Shown one piece after another: positions 3,895 through 57,794 of a stretch of 64,000 nucleotides of DNA. The translations under genes were made by a program, and so were the position numbers. The DNA is from Pyrococcus horikoshii OT3. Its GTDB lineage: Archaea > Methanobacteriota_B > Thermococci > Thermococcales > Thermococcaceae. Numbering within the stretch: the first letter of the stretch is position 1; every line of letters starts with the position of its first letter. The DNA lies in the NCBI RefSeq assembly GCF_000011105.1, contig NC_000961.1, forward strand, positions 1,660,662 to 1,724,661, in the 5' to 3' direction. Under the pieces are notes generated by a model. That model did no database searches, was not told the origin of the DNA, and was given only the letters and a program-made list of their open reading frames with translations.

Positions 3895-5081
3895 CGCATA
3901 TCCTCCACATAGAGGAAGAGACACTTCAAATACTCCGTATCTTTGGAGGCCATCAAAATTGGATGATCCGGGGCCTGAGTCCTATAGGGCTCAAGCATCT
4001 TAAGGAACTTCCCAGCTTTCGCTCCCGCAGCTATTATCATATCTTTGAACATTTGAAGGTCTACATGCTGAGAGCAAGAGCAAGTTACCAATATTCCACC
4101 ATCCTTCACTAGGTTTAATCCCGCAAAGTTAACGTTGAAATAAGCCCTAAGGCCGGCCTTTAGATCTTTCTCATGCTGAACGAAGGCGGGAGGATCAAGC
4201 ACGACGATATCAAATTTTTCTCCCTTTTTTTGAAGCTTTTCCATTTCTTCGAAAGCACTACCCACGATGAACTTCATTCTATCCTCAACACCATTCAATT
4301 TTGCATTCTCCTTTGCGGTTTCTATTGCTCTAGGAGACTTATCTATTCCTATAACTTCATCAGCACCAGCTATCGCAGCGTGTATAGCAAAGCCTCCTGT
4401 ATAGGTAAAAACATCAAGAACCCTATCCCCTGGCTGAACCCACTTTTCTAAGGCCAATCTGTTCTCTCTCTGATCCAGGAAGAAACCAGTCTTCTGACCC
4501 CTCATATCGACGATGAACTTTGCCCTTCCTTCTTGGATTATCGTTCTATATTTCTCCTTTCCCAAGAGAACTCTCTCAATTTCAGGCAATCCTTCCCTCC
4601 TTCTGCTCCTCCCAGTATTCTTTTCAAATACAGTTTCTATCCCAGGTTCAACCTCCATAATCGCTTCAGCGACATCAAGCTTAAACCTTTCCATACCAGC
4701 ACTTGAAATTTGAAGCGAGGCTATATCATTAAACCTATCAACTATCAGTCCAGGTAGGTAGTCGGCCTCCCCATAAACCATCCTATACACGTTAGTATAC
4801 TTTAAGACTTTCTTTCGGTACTCATTCGCCTTCTTAATCCTTCTTTTAAACAGATCCTTGTTTATTTCAACATCTTTATCCTTCGTAACTATCCTGACCA
4901 TGATGTTAGAATTAGGATTTGCAAAACCTTTCCCCAGGAATTTCCCACCCCTAGTGTAGACTTCCACTATATCCCCAGGCTTTATATCTCCCTCAACTCT
5001 TACAACACCTTTTTTAAAGACGATCATTGCTCCCTTCCCTATAGCCCTCGCGGCCTGAGCATCAACTACGACTCTCGCCAT
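3891..5081 (-). CDS. Class I SAM-dependent rRNA methyltransferase, RlmI-like (PUA + Rossmann)
   Basis: About 396 residues from MARVVVDAQAARAIGKGAM; a longer frame reaches 5111 but the internal ATG follows GGGGGTTAAC. Domains in order: PUA (1-75), a linker domain with ADYLPGLIVDRFND, and a Rossmann methyltransferase (about 190-390) with DVFTYTGGFAIHAA (motif I), VLDPPAFVQ (motif IV) and TCSCSQHV, whose Cys is the candidate catalytic residue for m5C formation. It resembles bacterial RlmI (23S rRNA m5C1962). I recall the P. horikoshii homologue as structurally characterised PH1915. Confidence 0.9.
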   Translation of the reverse strand: MARVVVDAQAARAIGKGAMIVFKKGVVRVEGDIKPGDIVEVYTRGGKFLGKGFANPNSNIMVRIVTKDKDVEINKDLFKRRIKKANEYRKKVLKYTNVYRMVYGEADYLPGLIVDRFNDIASLQISSAGMERFKLDVAEAIMEVEPGIETVFEKNTGRSRRREGLPEIERVLLGKEKYRTIIQEGRAKFIVDMRGQKTGFFLDQRENRLALEKWVQPGDRVLDVFTYTGGFAIHAAIAGADEVIGIDKSPRAIETAKENAKLNGVEDRMKFIVGSAFEEMEKLQKKGEKFDIVVLDPPAFVQHEKDLKAGLRAYFNVNFAGLNLVKDGGILVTCSCSQHVDLQMFKDMIIAAGAKAGKFLKMLEPYRTQAPDHPILMASKDTEYLKCLFLYVEDMR

Positions 5082-49235: not shown

Positions 49236-50057
49236 ATGCTGAAATGTTCAATCTGCATAAATGATGAAAGGATAACGAGAATCTTAATAGTAGATGGAAG
49301 GCCAATATGCAAAGAGTGCAAAGTATTTCTAGAGCACCCTCCAGATAAGGAAAAGATAAAGAAAGAACTAGAGGAGATTTTATCCAAAGTAGATAAAGCA
49401 ATTGTTGCTTATTCTGGGGGTAAAGATAGTATAGTTGCATTATATTTAGCCAAAGAAAAATACTCGATAGATGTTGAGGCAGTAATGGTCGATCATGGTT
49501 TTATAGCACCCCAAGCTATAAAGAATGCAAAGAACGTTGCCAAGTACTTAGACGTTCCTTTAACTATAATAAAGAGAGATTATTCTGATATATTCAGGGA
49601 GGCATTACTAAAGGCTAAATCTCCATGCAGAAAGTGCTCCAGGAGGACAATGGAGATCCTTAGAAAGTATGCATTAAAGAAGGGGTATAGATACATGATC
49701 ACAGGGCATGAACTACCTTTTGGCCATCACCCTTACAGATTAATGAGTGGAGGAATAATCCAGGTAAGGATTCTATCCTTAATGTCAGAGGAGGAAAGGA
49801 TGAAGATCCTTAAGAAGTTGCCAGTTGAGTTACCGGAGCTTCCAGGCTATACTAGTAACTGTTTGATTTTAGGCCCAGCTCTACAGAGATTTTGGGAGAG
49901 ACATGGTTACTCATTTGAGCATAGAAGAATAGCAGCCCTTGTTAGGTATGGACTTTTGAATAAAGAAAAAGCTCTAAAAAAAGTACAAAAACCAGAAGTT
50001 CCTCAATGGCAATGGGAGTTGGTTAAGAAAAAGCTTAAACTTGAAGATGGCTTCTAA
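49236..50057 (+). CDS. PP-loop ATPase with N-terminal zinc finger (TtuA/TtcA-like)
   Basis: 273 residues. The N-terminus MLKCSICINDE..CKECKVF is a CxxC/CxxC zinc finger. VAYSGGKDSIVALYLAKEKY is the PP-loop (SGGKDS, about residues 60-66). KSPCRKCSRRTMEILRKYALKKGY has a second CxxC as in tRNA 2-thiolation enzymes, which hold a 4Fe-4S cluster. PELPGYTSNCLIL adds a Cys. A tRNA-thiolation role is likely but the position is not known. TATA-like CCTTAAAAAGTG (near 49203-49214) with no ribosome site suggests a leaderless message. Confidence 0.78.
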   Translation: MLKCSICINDERITRILIVDGRPICKECKVFLEHPPDKEKIKKELEEILSKVDKAIVAYSGGKDSIVALYLAKEKYSIDVEAVMVDHGFIAPQAIKNAKNVAKYLDVPLTIIKRDYSDIFREALLKAKSPCRKCSRRTMEILRKYALKKGYRYMITGHELPFGHHPYRLMSGGIIQVRILSLMSEEERMKILKKLPVELPELPGYTSNCLILGPALQRFWERHGYSFEHRRIAALVRYGLLNKEKALKKVQKPEVPQWQWELVKKKLKLEDGF

Positions 50058-51249
50058 GCTTTTCTAAGGCTACATCAAAGATTTCCTCTGGCTTAGCCTC
50101 CACCCTTCCCCTAGCTAGATTATCCGTTCCTCCTCCTTTCCCTCCAAGTTCATCAATAACCTCCTTAAGTAGTTCCCTCATCGACACTGGAACACCTTCA
50201 TTCTTCGCAAAGAGGACGTACTTTTCATTAGCAAGCAATAATATCGTGTTTGAATTCTTTTTAACGAAGTCTATCGCAAAGGCCTGGGCATCCTTCATAT
50301 TCCAATTCTCTACATGGGTAATTACGGTGTAATTCCCCACCTTAACGCCCTCTTTTAATAATGCCTTTCCCTTCCATTCCCATATTTCCCTTCTTAGCTC
50401 CTCTATTCTATTCTCAAGGGAGTTAACGGTCCTAAGGACTTCATTAATCCTCTCAATAAGTGGAGGATTCTTATTAGGCATTAAATCTAAGGATCCCCAA
50501 TAATCCCTTAGAATCTCATTCATTTTGCTTATCGCCCTATATCCACATGTAAATTCTATCCTCCACAGGTTTTTAGATTTCTTATAAAACCTGAGAACTT
50601 TTATAATTCCAACCTCCCTAGTCGATTTAACGTGGGTTCCTCCGCAAGGGGTGACATCAACATCTCCTATTTTAACTATTCTAATTTTCTCCTTTACCTT
50701 TGTGACGTTTTTCCTTAGCTTCAAAGCAATTTCCTCAGGAAGCTTATCATATTCCTCAATAACTACTGGAAGGTCGTTGATGATGATCTTATTGACCTCT
50801 AACTCGGCCCTCTCTATCATATCCCAGTTAACTTCCCCATTCACTTCTATCTTTGCGTAATCCCTAAATATATTGAATCCCGTCGTATCAAGATCATAAA
50901 GCTTCTTTAGAACAGCGGATAATATATGCTGACCCGTGTGCATCTGCATGTTTCCGTATCTCCACTCCCAATCCAAGTAGAGTTTGACTTTCTCTCCTTC
51001 CTTTGGGATCTCTCCCCTTAACTTTCCAATGTGAAATATCTCTCCGTTCTTTTCAATGGTATCTTCCACCATTATTTCAAAATCATTCCCTTTTATGACT
51101 CCCCTATCCCCCGGTTGTCCTCCTCCCTCTGGATAGAAAATCGTTCTATCCAACACGACCTCTACTCTATCTTTTTCTTTTCTAACGTCAACGATCTTTG
51201 CATCAATTTCCCTTAAATAAGGATCCTTATAGTATACCCTTTCGACCAT
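50035..51249 (-). CDS. Alanyl-tRNA editing protein AlaX-L
   Basis: 404 residues. The N-terminal part and central [11 protein letters not shown] motif plus [17 protein letters not shown] match the AlaRS editing domain zinc site (HxxxH and CxxxH). The C-terminal DHHA1-like region ([16 protein letters not shown], near 375) makes this the long AlaX form. It hydrolyses Ser- or Gly-tRNA-Ala in trans. It overlaps the MCP-like gene by 23 bases upstream and the PP-loop gene by 23 bases downstream. Confidence 0.93.
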
Positions 51250-52003
51250 TCTTACCTCCTCCAGCCTCTTTGGAATATTCGCTGGCCATGATCCTTAGAA
51301 GGGAGGCTAAGTCCTTATTGTATTTCTCTTGTAACTCGGCAAACTTGCTTATAGCTAGGGCTATACCTTTCAATCCTTTTATATCGTTTATGAACTGCTC
51401 CTGCTCCTTAGAAATCTCACTCAAAATGTTCGTTATCTCAACTATCACCCTTATATCCTTTCCAAGTATTTCAGTTCCCTCCCTGATCCTATCCATGATC
51501 CCGAGGACTTCCCTCAGAGAATCAAGCTGATCCATAACTTTAGAATTAAATTCTTTTATCTCTCTCGCAAGGTTCATAGTTTGAACGGCCATCCTTCTAA
51601 TTTCATCTGCAACAACAGCGAATCCTCTTCCCGCTTCTCCGGCCCTAGCGGCCTCTATTGATGCATTTAGGGCGACTAGATTTGTTTGCTTAGCAACGCT
51701 AGCTATTGAGTCGCTGATCTTTGACACTGATTCTAAATGCTCAACGAGGGTGTTAAATTCCCTTGAAAAGACTTCAAGTCTTTGGAAGAAGGGTAAAAAC
51801 TCCCTTTGAAATCTATCAAGCTCAGACATTATTTCCGACAATTTCTCAATATTATCAAGTATTAGGGTATTATTCTCCATAAATTTTCCACTTATTTCCT
51901 CAGCAAGCTCATTGATGATCTTACTTGCCTCTTTTCCCGAGACGGATATTCTAAGTGACTGAGAGAGCGCAGTGGATGTTTTCTCTAGACTTTTGATGTC
52001 CAT
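51227..52003 (-). CDS. Soluble methyl-accepting chemotaxis-type signal transducer
   Basis: About 258 residues from [17 protein letters not shown], start after [46 protein letters not shown] (residues about 107-142) is the hairpin tip of MCPs that binds CheA/CheW. No membrane helix is present, and the flanking heptad-rich helices are short, so it is a small cytoplasmic receptor. It starts 5 bases after the ODP-like gene, the likely sensor partner. Confidence 0.9.
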
Positions 52004-52008
52004 TTTCC

Positions 52009-52788
52009 TCACCTCATTAAATCAACCCCAACTTTTAGGTTCTCAAGCCAATCTAGAAACCTAGGGACAAATCTTCTCGGAATTATAGCACCGTGCTGAG
52101 GGAGTATAGCCTCTATATCCAGCCCCCTAACTTTGTTAACCCACAATCTTAAGGCCTTATTACTGGCCATTAGCCTTTCGTGTAGTGGCCTCATATACTG
52201 AATATGCCTCTCCATATTCTCGACTACTAGGTACCTTTCATCTGGAAAGGCTATGCCGATGTCTCCAGAGAATAGGAACTTGCTCCTCCTGTCATATACT
52301 GTGAAGTGTCCTGGGCTATGAAGGAAATGGGCAGGAATAAATTCCAACGTTGTAGCTCCAAAGTTGAGAGTTTCCCCCTCATCCTGAAGTTCATGAGCGT
52401 AACCCCTTATGTTCTCAAATCCGAAATGGGGAAGAAACCTTACCCATAACCAGTGAATTATTATTTTTGCATTGCTAATCTCCCTCCATAAGGGAATGCT
52501 CCCAGCTACATCGGGATCTTGATGGCACATGTAAATGTACTCTATATCTTTCGGATCTATGTACTTCGACACATTTGCTAAAACCTTAGTAAATATCTTG
52601 TAACCTCCTGGATCAATTAGTATACCTTTCCCCTTGCTAACTATTAAATAGCTGTTCACATCTACATCCTCAAGCCCTTCCTGGGTTCCCAAGTAAATTA
52701 CCATGTGCTCATCATCCTTGTATAGGATATGATCCCTTCCTGGATCAAGGTTTGGATCTAAAAAGTATTCGCCCACTTTTTTCACCAA
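52009..52788 (-). CDS. ODP-like di-iron protein (metallo-beta-lactamase/flavodiiron fold without flavodoxin)
   Basis: 259 residues. The metal-binding region has [16 protein letters not shown] (H89, D91, D93), then [27 protein letters not shown] and [10 protein letters not shown] for the other ligands. This follows the flavodiiron beta-lactamase domain but has HxDxD where typical enzymes have HxExD, the pattern I recall for ODP of Treponema, an oxygen and iron sensor that works with a chemoreceptor. No flavodoxin domain. The next gene is a soluble MCP. The start is a TTG/GTG and may be leaderless. Confidence 0.75.
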
Positions 52789-52836
52789 AGGTATAATTAG
52801 AAGAGGAATATTTAAGCAATTTGGCTACATAAAAAC

Positions 52837-53481
52837 CTACATAGACTGTCTAGCCTCTAATATTGCCTTAACTCTCTTTAGTCTGAAGAAGTTCTCCCTT
52901 TCCATCTCATCCAAATGTTGCTCTATGAACTTGATCGTGTTCTCCATCCTCGGGATTATTATGTATTCTAAAGCATTAACTCTCCTCTTGGTTTTCTCTA
53001 TCTCTTTTCCAAGCCTCTTAAGGGATTCTTCAACTTCTGCAAGTCTTATTGCTAACTCCAAAACCTCCTCAAACTTTTCAGCGGCCATGTCTACCGTTGA
53101 AGTTGTTGAAACGAAGGCATAACCTCTTTCGCTGGCTTTCCTTTTAAGTTCAGGTACCTCGATCAACGGGACCCTAACACCCATTATGTTTCTTGTTTTG
53201 ATTTCAATTTCTTTGTTAGGCTTGACCCCAATGGCTATTTCCTTTAATCTTAATGCTCCAACGTCCACCTGGGCCCTTCTTAGAGAGTTGAAAGCCTCCT
53301 CCATCTTTCGAATTAGCTCTCTCCTTAAAGAAAGGGCTTCATCATATATTGTAAAGAACTCCATGATTAGGGCATCCTGCTTCTCCTTGAGAAGCTTATG
53401 GCCCCTCTCAGCTAACTTAACTCTTCTCTTCAACTTTAGGAGTTCCATTCTTGTGGGTTTTATCTTAAGAATTTCTGGCAT
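52837..53481 (-). CDS. atpD: A-type ATP synthase subunit D
   Basis: 214 residues, mostly long coiled-coil helices with the family motif [25 protein letters not shown] near the N-terminus and [37 protein letters not shown] at the C-terminus. It forms the central rotor shaft with subunit F. Last gene of the ATP synthase operon, 24 bases after atpB. Confidence 0.96.
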
Positions 53482-54899: not shown

Positions 54900-57794
54900 T
54901 CACGCCCCATACTTCTTGAAGAGCTCCTCAAACTGTTCGTTAGTTTTGTCAATTAAGGATCTAATTTTAGATACGTCACGCTCAAACTTCATCCTACCTA
55001 TTTCCTCCCTAACGGGTAACTTAGCTATCTCCTCTAAGGGAACTCCCCTGTTTATGGCTTCCATGGTCTTGTCATAGAAGTTCAGGAGAACCCTCATCAT
55101 CGTAACCTGCTTCTCGGGTGGACAGTAGGTATCTACTTCATCGAAGGCATCCTGCTGTAGATAATCCTCCCTAAGCATTCTGGCAACTAAGAGGATTGCT
55201 CTCTCCCTCTCAGGTAATGCATCGGGACCAACAATTCTAACTATCTCCTGTAACTCGGATTCCTTCTGAAGCAAAGCCATGGCTTTATCCCTCATCGCCT
55301 TCCATTCGGGATCAATGTTCTTATGCCACCAGTCCTTTACTGCATCAACATACAAGGAATAGCTCGTCAACCAGTTGATTGCTGGGAAGTGTCTTCTCCT
55401 AGCTAAGTCGGCATCTAAAGCCCAGAAGACCTTGACAACTCTAAGCGTGTTCTGAACTACAGGTTCACTGAAGTCTCCTCCAGGAGGTGACACCGCTCCT
55501 ATTACAGAAACGCTTCCAACCCTGTAGTCACTTCCAAGGGTAACAACTCTACCTGCTCTCTCGTAGAATTCGGCAAGCTTTGAGGCTAAGTAAGCTGGAT
55601 ATCCCTCTTCACCAGGCATTTCCTCAAGTCTACCTGAGATCTCTCTCAGGGCTTCGGCCCATCTTGAGGTTGAATCAGCCATTAGGGCTACATCATATCC
55701 CATATCCCTGAAGTACTCGGCTATCGTGATTCCGGTGTAAATAGAGGCTTCTCTAGCGGCCACAGGCATGTTAGAGGTGTTAGCTATTAAAACGGTTCTT
55801 TCCATTAATGGCTTACCAGTCTTAGGATCCTTAAGCTTGGGGAACTCTTCAAGAACATCCGTCATCTCGTTTCCTCTCTCTCCACAACCAATATAGATAA
55901 CCACTTGGGCATCACTCCACTTGGCTAGCTGATGCTGAGTCACCGTGTTGTGAAGCAATGTTGGCATGTTGCCACCAACGAAATTGTGGGTTTCAGTCGT
56001 TACATCATATACCTCTTGAGGTTCAGGAATGTACCTGACGTCAATGACCTCGTCAAAGATGATGTGCTGTAGGTGATTCTCCGCCACCTCTTCAAGTCCT
56101 ATAGACTTGGCAAACTTTCTGAAGTCCTCATAAGGTAATACCTTAGGCATACCGTTGACTTCAACTGGAATCGTATCTAAATTGCCCCTTCTACTTACCC
56201 TAACCTTGTAGTACTCCCCACTCTTACTGATCGTTACGTATATTCCAAGTTTCGCGAACAGATAGCTTAGTTCATAGGCCCCCTCTTCGGATGCCAGTGT
56301 TATTTCAACTTCCTCTTTTCCTTTAATATAGGCATTTACAAATGCCCTAACTACATTGCTGGGAGAAAGTAGAAGCTCCCTGGGTACTTTCCAGTTTTCA
56401 ACCTTTTTATCCTCTGGAACTCCCAACCTTCTAAGAACGTCAACCAGAGGTTTACTTTGGATCACTAACGCCTTACCATCTACTTTCTGGACTATTCTTC
56501 CACCAACTCCGAAGAGCTTTAGGGAGAGAGAATTTACCCTCTCAAGCAGAGATTCATCGTCACAGTAAATCTCAATGATCCCAGACTTCAAGGTTCCATT
56601 GGCCATTAAATATCCTAGGAATTCCGCAAGTTCTTCATTTAGGATCTCCGGAACTTTGATCTCTCCAACATTAGAACTATCCAATTTGATGTACTCGCCA
56701 CCATCTATTTTCTTTACGACTGCTATTCTATCTCCTGGCTTTACATGCATGGCCATTACTTCTTTAAGGATAAGGCCATCCTTGGTTACCCTACCCGTGA
56801 ATAGCCTATGAATTGGAGTGACCTTTATCTTTCTCCCTGTTCTCGTTCTGATCTCAACCATTCCAGAGGATACTCCCTTGTAGACGTGAGTAGCCTTAAT
56901 CTCCACTATCTTACCATCCTTATAGCCATAAACAGTTATCGGTTTCTCAAGTTCTGTCCATTCCTCATTTCCTTCAACGATTTTTCTTCCCTTTCCATCG
57001 AGCTTTTCATAGAGCTCCTTAATTTTGATTAAGCCGAATTCCTTGGTGAGCACAAGAGTATCTCCATCTACGCACTTACCGCTGCCGAAAGGCCCAGGAA
57101 TTGCAGCTGTTCCACCTTTAGCTTGCGGGAAGAAGGTATCTATTACCCTCTGTCCAGTTATTAGAGGAACTTCAGGTGGAAGCTTCTCCTTGTAAGGCCT
57201 CTTCACTCTAACGGGCCACCTCTGATACATCTTAAGCTCTTTTATCTCACCGCTAGGAGTCTTTACCTTTGCTATAACCTCTTCTATTGTGTAGTCTCCT
57301 TCCTCCGCAATCTCAACGATCTCTCCTTCGATTCCTGGGGGAACCATTATTTTATGGACGATTATACTTGTCTCTGGAACTTCTCCTATTATGTCTCCCC
57401 CAACCACCTTATCTCCAACTTTAGCTTTTGGAATGAAGTGCCACTTCTTATCCCTTGGGAGGGCCGGAGCTGTAACTCCTCTTGCTATGAAATCACCAGT
57501 TTTCTCCCTAATGACCTCTAATGGTCTCTGAATACCATCATATATTGAAGTTAACAACCCAGGACCTAGTTCAACGCTTAAGGATGCACCGGTTCCAACA
57601 ACAGGTTCTCCTGGCCTAACTCCAGCAGTTTCCTCATAAACCTGAATTACCGCTTTATCTCCTTCAAGCCTGATGATCTCTCCTATAAGTCCAAGTTCGC
57701 CCACTCTAACTACCTCGTACATCTTAGCTCCTTTCATTCCATCTGCGACCACTAAAGGTCCAGTAACCCTAATTATCCTCCCCTTCGCCACCAT
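54900..57794 (-). CDS. atpA: A-type ATP synthase catalytic subunit A, with intein
   Basis: 964 residues including a 376-residue intein; the mature subunit would be 588 residues. The P-loop GPFGSGK/T is split by the intein after Lys. [48 protein letters not shown] and the non-homologous region before 240 are typical of A-type catalytic subunits. It makes ATP from ADP and phosphate driven by an ion gradient. The gene lies between atpF and atpB. Confidence 0.98.
55947..57074 (-). other. Intein in AtpA, 376 residues
   Basis: It spans residues 241-616. It starts with Cys ([14 protein letters not shown]), block B is [15 protein letters not shown] with the His, and it ends [23 protein letters not shown] before extein Thr. 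It interrupts the Walker A loop between K and T. The LAGLIDADG blocks are degenerate: [17 protein letters not shown] has Asn where an acid is needed and [14 protein letters not shown] has no D/E-G motif. The size matches my memory of the P. horikoshii VMA intein. Confidence 0.95.

Follow-up and report, generated by a model that had tools for sequence, protein, structure and literature searches.

An ODP-type di-iron protein and its adjacent soluble chemoreceptor as a probable chemotaxis input operon in Pyrococcus horikoshii

Can a beta-lactamase-fold protein, encoded next to a chemoreceptor that has no membrane anchor, act as a detached oxygen sensor for the archaellum of an anaerobe? The question arises from a gene pair within a 64,000-nucleotide stretch (the window) of the closed genome of Pyrococcus horikoshii OT3 (1,738,505 bases), which the initial annotation had read as an O2 or redox sensing module. 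Muok et al. (PNAS, 2019) reportedly described such a protein, ODP (TDE2498), together with the receptor TDE2496 in Treponema denticola, as well as the ODP of Thermotoga maritima. These are the closest known systems (PMC7319448, PMC6978683, PMC7666581), and TDE2496, the partner of the Treponema ODP, is devoid of membrane and sensing modules and modulates CheA (PMC7666581). We consider, with a probability of roughly 0.82, that the pair in the window is likewise an ODP-type input operon for chemotaxis, steering the cell with respect to O2 (or Fe2+ or redox state), and that it belongs to a motility regulon marked by EarA-type promoter boxes. The protein family, the ligands, the pairing, the link to CheA, the joint decay and the shared promoter boxes on which we base this reading were all established by computation. 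The pair is a concrete candidate for an O2 or iron input to the chemotaxis of hyperthermophilic archaea.

Table 1. Features of the ODP-chemoreceptor (MCP) operon, in window coordinates
Feature	Position	Strand	Details
Two tandem EarA-type boxes in TATGTAGGTTTTTATGTAG	52825..52843	(-)	12-base period; 0 mismatches
TATA box CTTAAATAT of the ODP-MCP operon	52808..52816	(-)	downstream of the tandem boxes
ODP gene (putative di-iron sensor of beta-lactamase fold)	52009..52788	(-)	TTG start at 52788 (alternative in-frame GTG at 52785), stop at 52009; 259 aa; motif CHQDPDVAG; PF19583, PDB matches, ligand conservation
Shine-Dalgarno-like GAGGTGA of the MCP gene	52009..52015	(-)	overlaps the ODP stop codon; read from the sequence
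Soluble chemoreceptor (MCP) hairpin gene	51227..52003	(-)	ATG at 52003, stop at 51227; 258 aa; PF00015, 99 bits; no transmembrane segment or sensor domain
AlaX-type tRNA-editing protein gene	50035..51249	(-)	tRNA_SAD and DHHA1 Pfam matches; overlaps the MCP stop by 23 bases

The ODP and its soluble receptor

Both frames occupy the coordinates that the initial annotation had given, on the minus strand. The upstream frame matches the Pfam ODP profile (PF19583, cut-off 27.2 bits) at 247.8 bits (E 1e-73), against 95 bits for Lactamase_B, and the downstream frame matches MCPsignal at 99 bits; with such scores neither frame is a chance match. Among PDB sequences, the two solved ODPs match the protein at 217 and 213 bits, and the best flavodiiron protein at 55. 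The fold gives the same answer. An AlphaFold model built from 30 sequences has a mean pLDDT of 90, and a Foldseek search with it returned ODP chains at all of ranks 1-10. Superposition with VIA-align gave Z scores of 34.4 to the T. maritima ODP (6qwo), 33.0 to 6r9n, which holds the peroxy di-iron species, and 31.3 to the T. denticola ODP (6qnm); the best member of the next family, a flavodiiron protein, reached 26.4. The gene thus encodes a true member of the ODP (oxygen-binding di-iron protein) family. The initial annotation had called the protein ODP-like and had set a grouping with ordinary metallo-hydrolases against that identity; sequence and fold both place it with ODP.

Searching every one of the 94 genomes of the order, we found two groups of ODPs, clade A, to which the window protein belongs (30 of 94 genomes, 71-100% identical), and clade B (31 of the 94, in Thermococcaceae, about 45% identical). 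The initial annotation had suggested an alignment with the Treponema ODP, which is 44% identical to the window protein, and in that comparison all six ligands are kept: H89, D91, D93, H157, D176 and H232, numbered from the TTG codon. That these six positions (H-D-D-H-D-H) bind the metals we take from the flavodiiron literature. Across 122 aligned ODPs (30 of clade A, 12 of clade B and 80 bacterial) there are three departures from the set, including one Asp to Asn change in a bacterial protein (L144) and a clade B frame (L085) that departs before the last His. An Asp and a Val typical of ODPs are retained in 122 of 122.

With the flavodiiron proteins (ROO, FprA, FlRd) the ODP has in common the metallo-beta-lactamase fold and a di-metal site, but their hallmarks, a C-terminal flavodoxin domain and the H-E-D-H ligand pattern, are both absent from it. 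As the initial annotation had noted, no flavodoxin domain is present in the frame: Pfam detects none, and the stop codon comes right after the lactamase domain. The same genome encodes a separate flavodiiron protein (an open frame of 415 aa), which carries Glu and His where ODPs carry Asp and Val. With the Treponema and Thermotoga ODPs, on the other hand, the protein shares the fold, the six ligands and the HQDPDV motif.

The receptor gene follows the ODP gene after five bases (52004-52008), a spacing that the initial annotation had given correctly, together with the description of the product as an MCP hairpin with neither a membrane anchor nor a sensor domain of its own. The hairpin tip is intact. 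No membrane-like stretch was detected in the receptor (maximum 19-residue hydropathy 0.98), and the strict methylation motif is absent from it. Four further receptors are encoded in the genome: three have both a membrane stretch and the strict motif, and the fourth, a 389-aa protein in the che cluster, has neither. By sequence, the closest solved relative of the window receptor is 3g6b/3g67, presumably the soluble receptor of Thermotoga. An adjacent soluble receptor without a membrane or sensing part is also what accompanies the Treponema ODP.

The AlaX-type gene downstream is probably co-transcribed with the pair. In most of the relatives with flanks that we read it likewise comes after ODP-MCP, and this holds in G001 and G093 too, which have different upstream genes; genome G081 is an exception. 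Elsewhere in the window, at 54900-57794 (minus strand), the 964-aa frame of ATP synthase subunit A is seemingly interrupted after GPFGSGK by an insert that, judged by eye, looks intein-like.

Promoter boxes and a predicted EarA regulon

The ODP-MCP operon has its own promoter, located at the 3' end of atpD, and the first of its tandem boxes overlaps the atpD stop codon. By chance, 0.11 such tandems would be expected in the window at up to 2 mismatches. The TATA box lies about 20 bases before the start codon, which suggests a leaderless or near-leaderless mRNA. Of the 30 stretches upstream of clade A ODPs, 27 contain the sequence CTTAAATA; in two genomes (G027 and G069), whose operon begins with an extra receptor gene, it stands before that gene instead. 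The boxes themselves precede 29 of the 30 clade A operons: in 26 they are directly upstream of the ODP gene at no more than 1 mismatch, in G059 at 2, and in G027 and G069 perfect boxes precede the extra receptor gene. The operon of G093, alone among the 30, lacks them, and the nine clade B promoters that we examined contain no match better than 5 mismatches. This promoter, and the extra soluble receptor at the head of the operon in two genomes, set the archaeal systems apart from their bacterial counterparts.

The extra receptor is a soluble protein of 409-413 aa (L087:5133-6362 in G069 and L089:5796-7037 in G027, both on the minus strand). Its N-terminal domain comprises about 130 residues; neither a globin nor another sensor domain was found there with a convincing Pfam match, and the first 135 residues have no match among PDB sequences.

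The EarA motif described for archaellin promoters of Thermococcales is A(C/G)(C/G)TACA(T/C), in up to three repeats near the BRE (PMC10665913), and the box of the ODP promoter is its exact reverse complement. That paper describes the arl operon of Pyrococcus furiosus and other Thermococcales as controlled by EarA, and the ODP promoter shares with it the box sequence, the repeats and the adjacency to BRE and TATA. We searched eight genomes, at up to 2 mismatches, with a pattern designed from the ODP promoters and obtained 98 matches; the reversed pattern gave 19. At up to 1 mismatch there are 37 regions after merging of overlapping sites: 8 at ODP genes (one of these, L022, was assigned from the sequence because the frame caller had put the start too far upstream), 6 at archaellin operons, 14 at chemoreceptor genes (one shared with cheR), 1 at a cheY operon, 4 beside an AAA-ATPase gene and 4 with no notable gene start nearby. 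Apart from the ODP promoters, 21 of 29 such sites in the eight genomes precede archaellin, che or receptor genes. The motility and chemotaxis sites usually lie upstream of the first possible start, by about 45-130 bases. Many regions with exactly 2 mismatches are not associated with any motility or chemotaxis gene, and this class looks like background.

In the window genome no site other than the ODP promoter is perfect. The che cluster of that genome has a box tandem with 2 mismatches, and the promoters of a 437-aa receptor and of the archaellin carry matches with 3; the other sites with 2 mismatches are near nothing related.

These data bear on whether the boxes are read by EarA. The operon could belong to the motility regulon and yet be controlled by a different protein that binds the tandem boxes, as might be suspected because the boxes of the ODP promoter are oriented opposite to those of the archaellin promoters, because one of them lies almost against the BRE/TATA whereas the published archaellin sites are nine bases upstream of the BRE (PMC10665913), and because four perfect sites adjoin the AAA-ATPase gene, which is not obviously a motility gene. 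We regard this as unlikely, given the exact complementarity to the published motif, the occurrence of both orientations among receptor promoters, and the presence in this genome of earA (PF07381, 114 bits) immediately ahead of the archaellin genes. We therefore retain EarA, whose binding to the ODP promoter boxes is predicted by analogy with its homologues, as the candidate regulator. The sites described for EarA in PMC10665913 are those of the first archaellin gene only, whereas the boxes reported here also precede ODP-MCP, chemoreceptor and che genes, and among these promoters they occur in both orientations, unlike in the published arl case.

From the boxes we predict a chemoreceptor regulon of EarA, a subject that the Pyrococcus EarA paper leaves as future work (PMC10665913). 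Among the open-licence papers listed by our searches, no title or abstract reports that EarA controls chemoreceptors, and within that scope control of both chemoreceptors and ODP by EarA is a new prediction.

The four perfect tandem boxes outside the recognized motility genes (L270, L279, L290 and L306; motif positions 4982 and 3001) were found in four genomes of one genus, beside an AAA-ATPase gene whose product has a Vps4-like C-terminus. On their other side is a gene that we take, by eye, to encode seryl-tRNA synthetase. The AAA-ATPase gene is possibly an unrecognized member of the motility regulon.

Pairing with the receptor and linkage to CheA

An orthologous receptor gene lies directly beside the clade A ODP gene in 30 of 30 genomes. 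Among the best 80 of the 524 relatives of the Treponema ODP in our genome collection, a receptor frame follows directly downstream on the same strand in 79, the gene order of the window; the single exception (L180) has receptors upstream. The pair is accordingly a widespread module. The recruitment of ODPs into signalling systems of bacteria and archaea, chemotaxis among them, has been described, as have two gene orders for the operons with receptors, and the pairing itself is thus already published for both domains (PMC7319448). The main text of a paper on archaeal chemoreceptors (PMC9680633) does not mention ODP.

Searching phylum-wide (115 genomes) we found no match to the ODP outside the family at E 1e-30. 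In a tree of 57 of the best 80 bacterial relatives, 14 of the 30 sequences of clade A and the full set of 12 retrieved from clade B, clades A and B are each firm, and neither is firmly placed among the bacterial ODPs; the Thermococcaceae protein forms a clade of its own relative to that of Treponema. The archaeal receptor, unlike its bacterial counterparts, has a very long branch. In the receptor tree, computed from 63 cores of coiled-coil sequence and with long branches, archaeal and bacterial ODP-linked receptors unite with a support of 72, and the grouping of the archaeal receptor with other archaeal receptors is not rejected (p-AU 0.385). ODP relatives also occur in seven phage records; the five that were listed reach no more than 39.5% identity.

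The distribution of the ODP was compared with that of CheA. We counted CheA at an identity of at least 56% to that of the window genome (G000:C1:440816-443110, PF02895), so that divergent copies (33-36% identity) do not enter the count, nor does a partial match in G063; 33 of 94 genomes qualified. The window genome also encodes CheW, and neighbouring frames of its che cluster we take, by eye, to be cheR, cheY, cheB, cheC and cheD. Both CheA and clade A ODP are present in 27 of the 94 genomes, ODP alone in 3 (G049, G069, G081), CheA alone in 6 (G002, G009, G035, G065, G077 and G085, with G009 cut at a contig end) and neither in 58, a co-occurrence with a Fisher p of 1e-14 that is not corrected for shared ancestry. 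With the set restricted to the 74 genomes of no less than 90% completeness and no more than 5% contamination, the corresponding counts are 27, 2, 3 and 42. Clade B served as an inner control: only 9 of its 31 genomes have the main-type CheA, and there is no association (Fisher p 0.49).

Two features of CheA genes may be recorded here. Eight Thermococcaceae genomes (G018, G020, G029, G032, G050, G055, G067, G072) contain a second, divergent CheA, the 33-36% class; in G029 this gene comes after a cheY-like gene, and an EarA-type box precedes the two. In G023 the CheA gene is split into two overlapping open frames (G023:C1:539311-541670), by a frameshift, a sequencing error or a true gene split.

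The three genomes with ODP alone differ from each other. G069 is 100% complete and has archaellins, but neither CheA nor CheW was found in it; the receptor beside its ODP lacks the N-terminal 96 residues, and its ODP has an Arg in place of H157, the only ligand lost among the 30 clade A proteins. Since both receptor and ligand are damaged where CheA is missing, this genome provides natural evidence that the iron site of the ODP is maintained for the CheA pathway. The pair is intact in G049 (96% complete) and G081 (79% complete), where we found no CheA, CheW or archaellins. Both are incomplete drafts, so that an assembly gap is possible; as they are, they stand against a strict rule linking ODP to CheA.

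The tie to archaellum chemotaxis proposed by the initial annotation is therefore strengthened by the presence of CheA in 27 of 30 genomes with the ODP, by the joint decay in G069 and by promoter boxes that archaellin, che and receptor genes carry as well. As far as our searches of open-licence papers show, the predicted EarA-type regulon and the G069 case are new. Taking them together, we lean towards a broader view, in which the EarA of Thermococcales would be a master regulator of behaviour, uniting archaellum, chemoreceptors, che genes and ODP-MCP in one regulon, and in which the ODP ligands would be kept only along with the CheA pathway.

A proposed sensing mechanism

We propose that EarA, or another factor that recognizes its motif, would turn on the ODP and its receptor along with the archaellum. 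The ODP would most likely bind two iron ions and form a stable peroxo adduct with O2, which would alter both the shape of the protein and its contact with the receptor, with the ODP acting as a detached sensory subunit for the adjacent soluble protein. Through its intact tip the receptor could then change the activity of CheA, coupled by CheW, and the signal would pass from CheA to CheY and to the archaellum, so as to steer the anaerobe with respect to O2 (or Fe2+ or redox state). The output organelle is an archaellum here, in contrast to the flagellum of Treponema and Thermotoga. For this archaeon, binding of iron and O2, contact between ODP and receptor and an effect on CheA are suggested by analogy with the bacterial systems, and any sign assigned to the chemotactic response would be an analogy as well.

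The ODP could instead sense something other than O2 or Fe2+, such as NO, another metal or the redox state, while still signalling through the receptor. The ligand set alone does not fix the signal, and the identity to the Treponema protein is modest; however, both characterized ODPs have the same six ligands and the same ODP-specific Asp and Val, and we find this alternative quite improbable. That the protein is an enzyme (an O2 or NO reductase like the flavodiiron proteins, or a hydrolase) with a receptor next to it by accident, as the fold held in common with flavodiiron proteins (Z about 26) and weak matches to flavorubredoxin models might suggest, is hardly credible for a protein without a flavodoxin domain, in a genome with a separate flavodiiron protein whose Glu and His ODPs lack, and with so constant a receptor neighbour, linkage and joint decay with CheA, and a motility-type promoter.

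The oxygen- or iron-responsive input that we favour should be accessible to genetics, T. kodakarensis being a tractable member of the group. Deletion strains of P. furiosus have been used too (PMC10665913).

The family also offers a comparison of its own, because it contains two ODP paralogues, one (clade A) wired to chemotaxis and one (clade B) not, a contrast that should help to identify the features by which an ODP becomes a chemotaxis sensor. At the clade B loci (L075-L085; for example L076:5766-7672, minus strand), a gene of about 264 aa lies directly upstream of the ODP gene wherever the fetched locus includes upstream sequence (11 of 11), and it is in turn usually preceded by a gene of about 110 aa that has no Pfam match. 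Some members of the 264-aa group show weak CoxG/SRPBCC-like matches.
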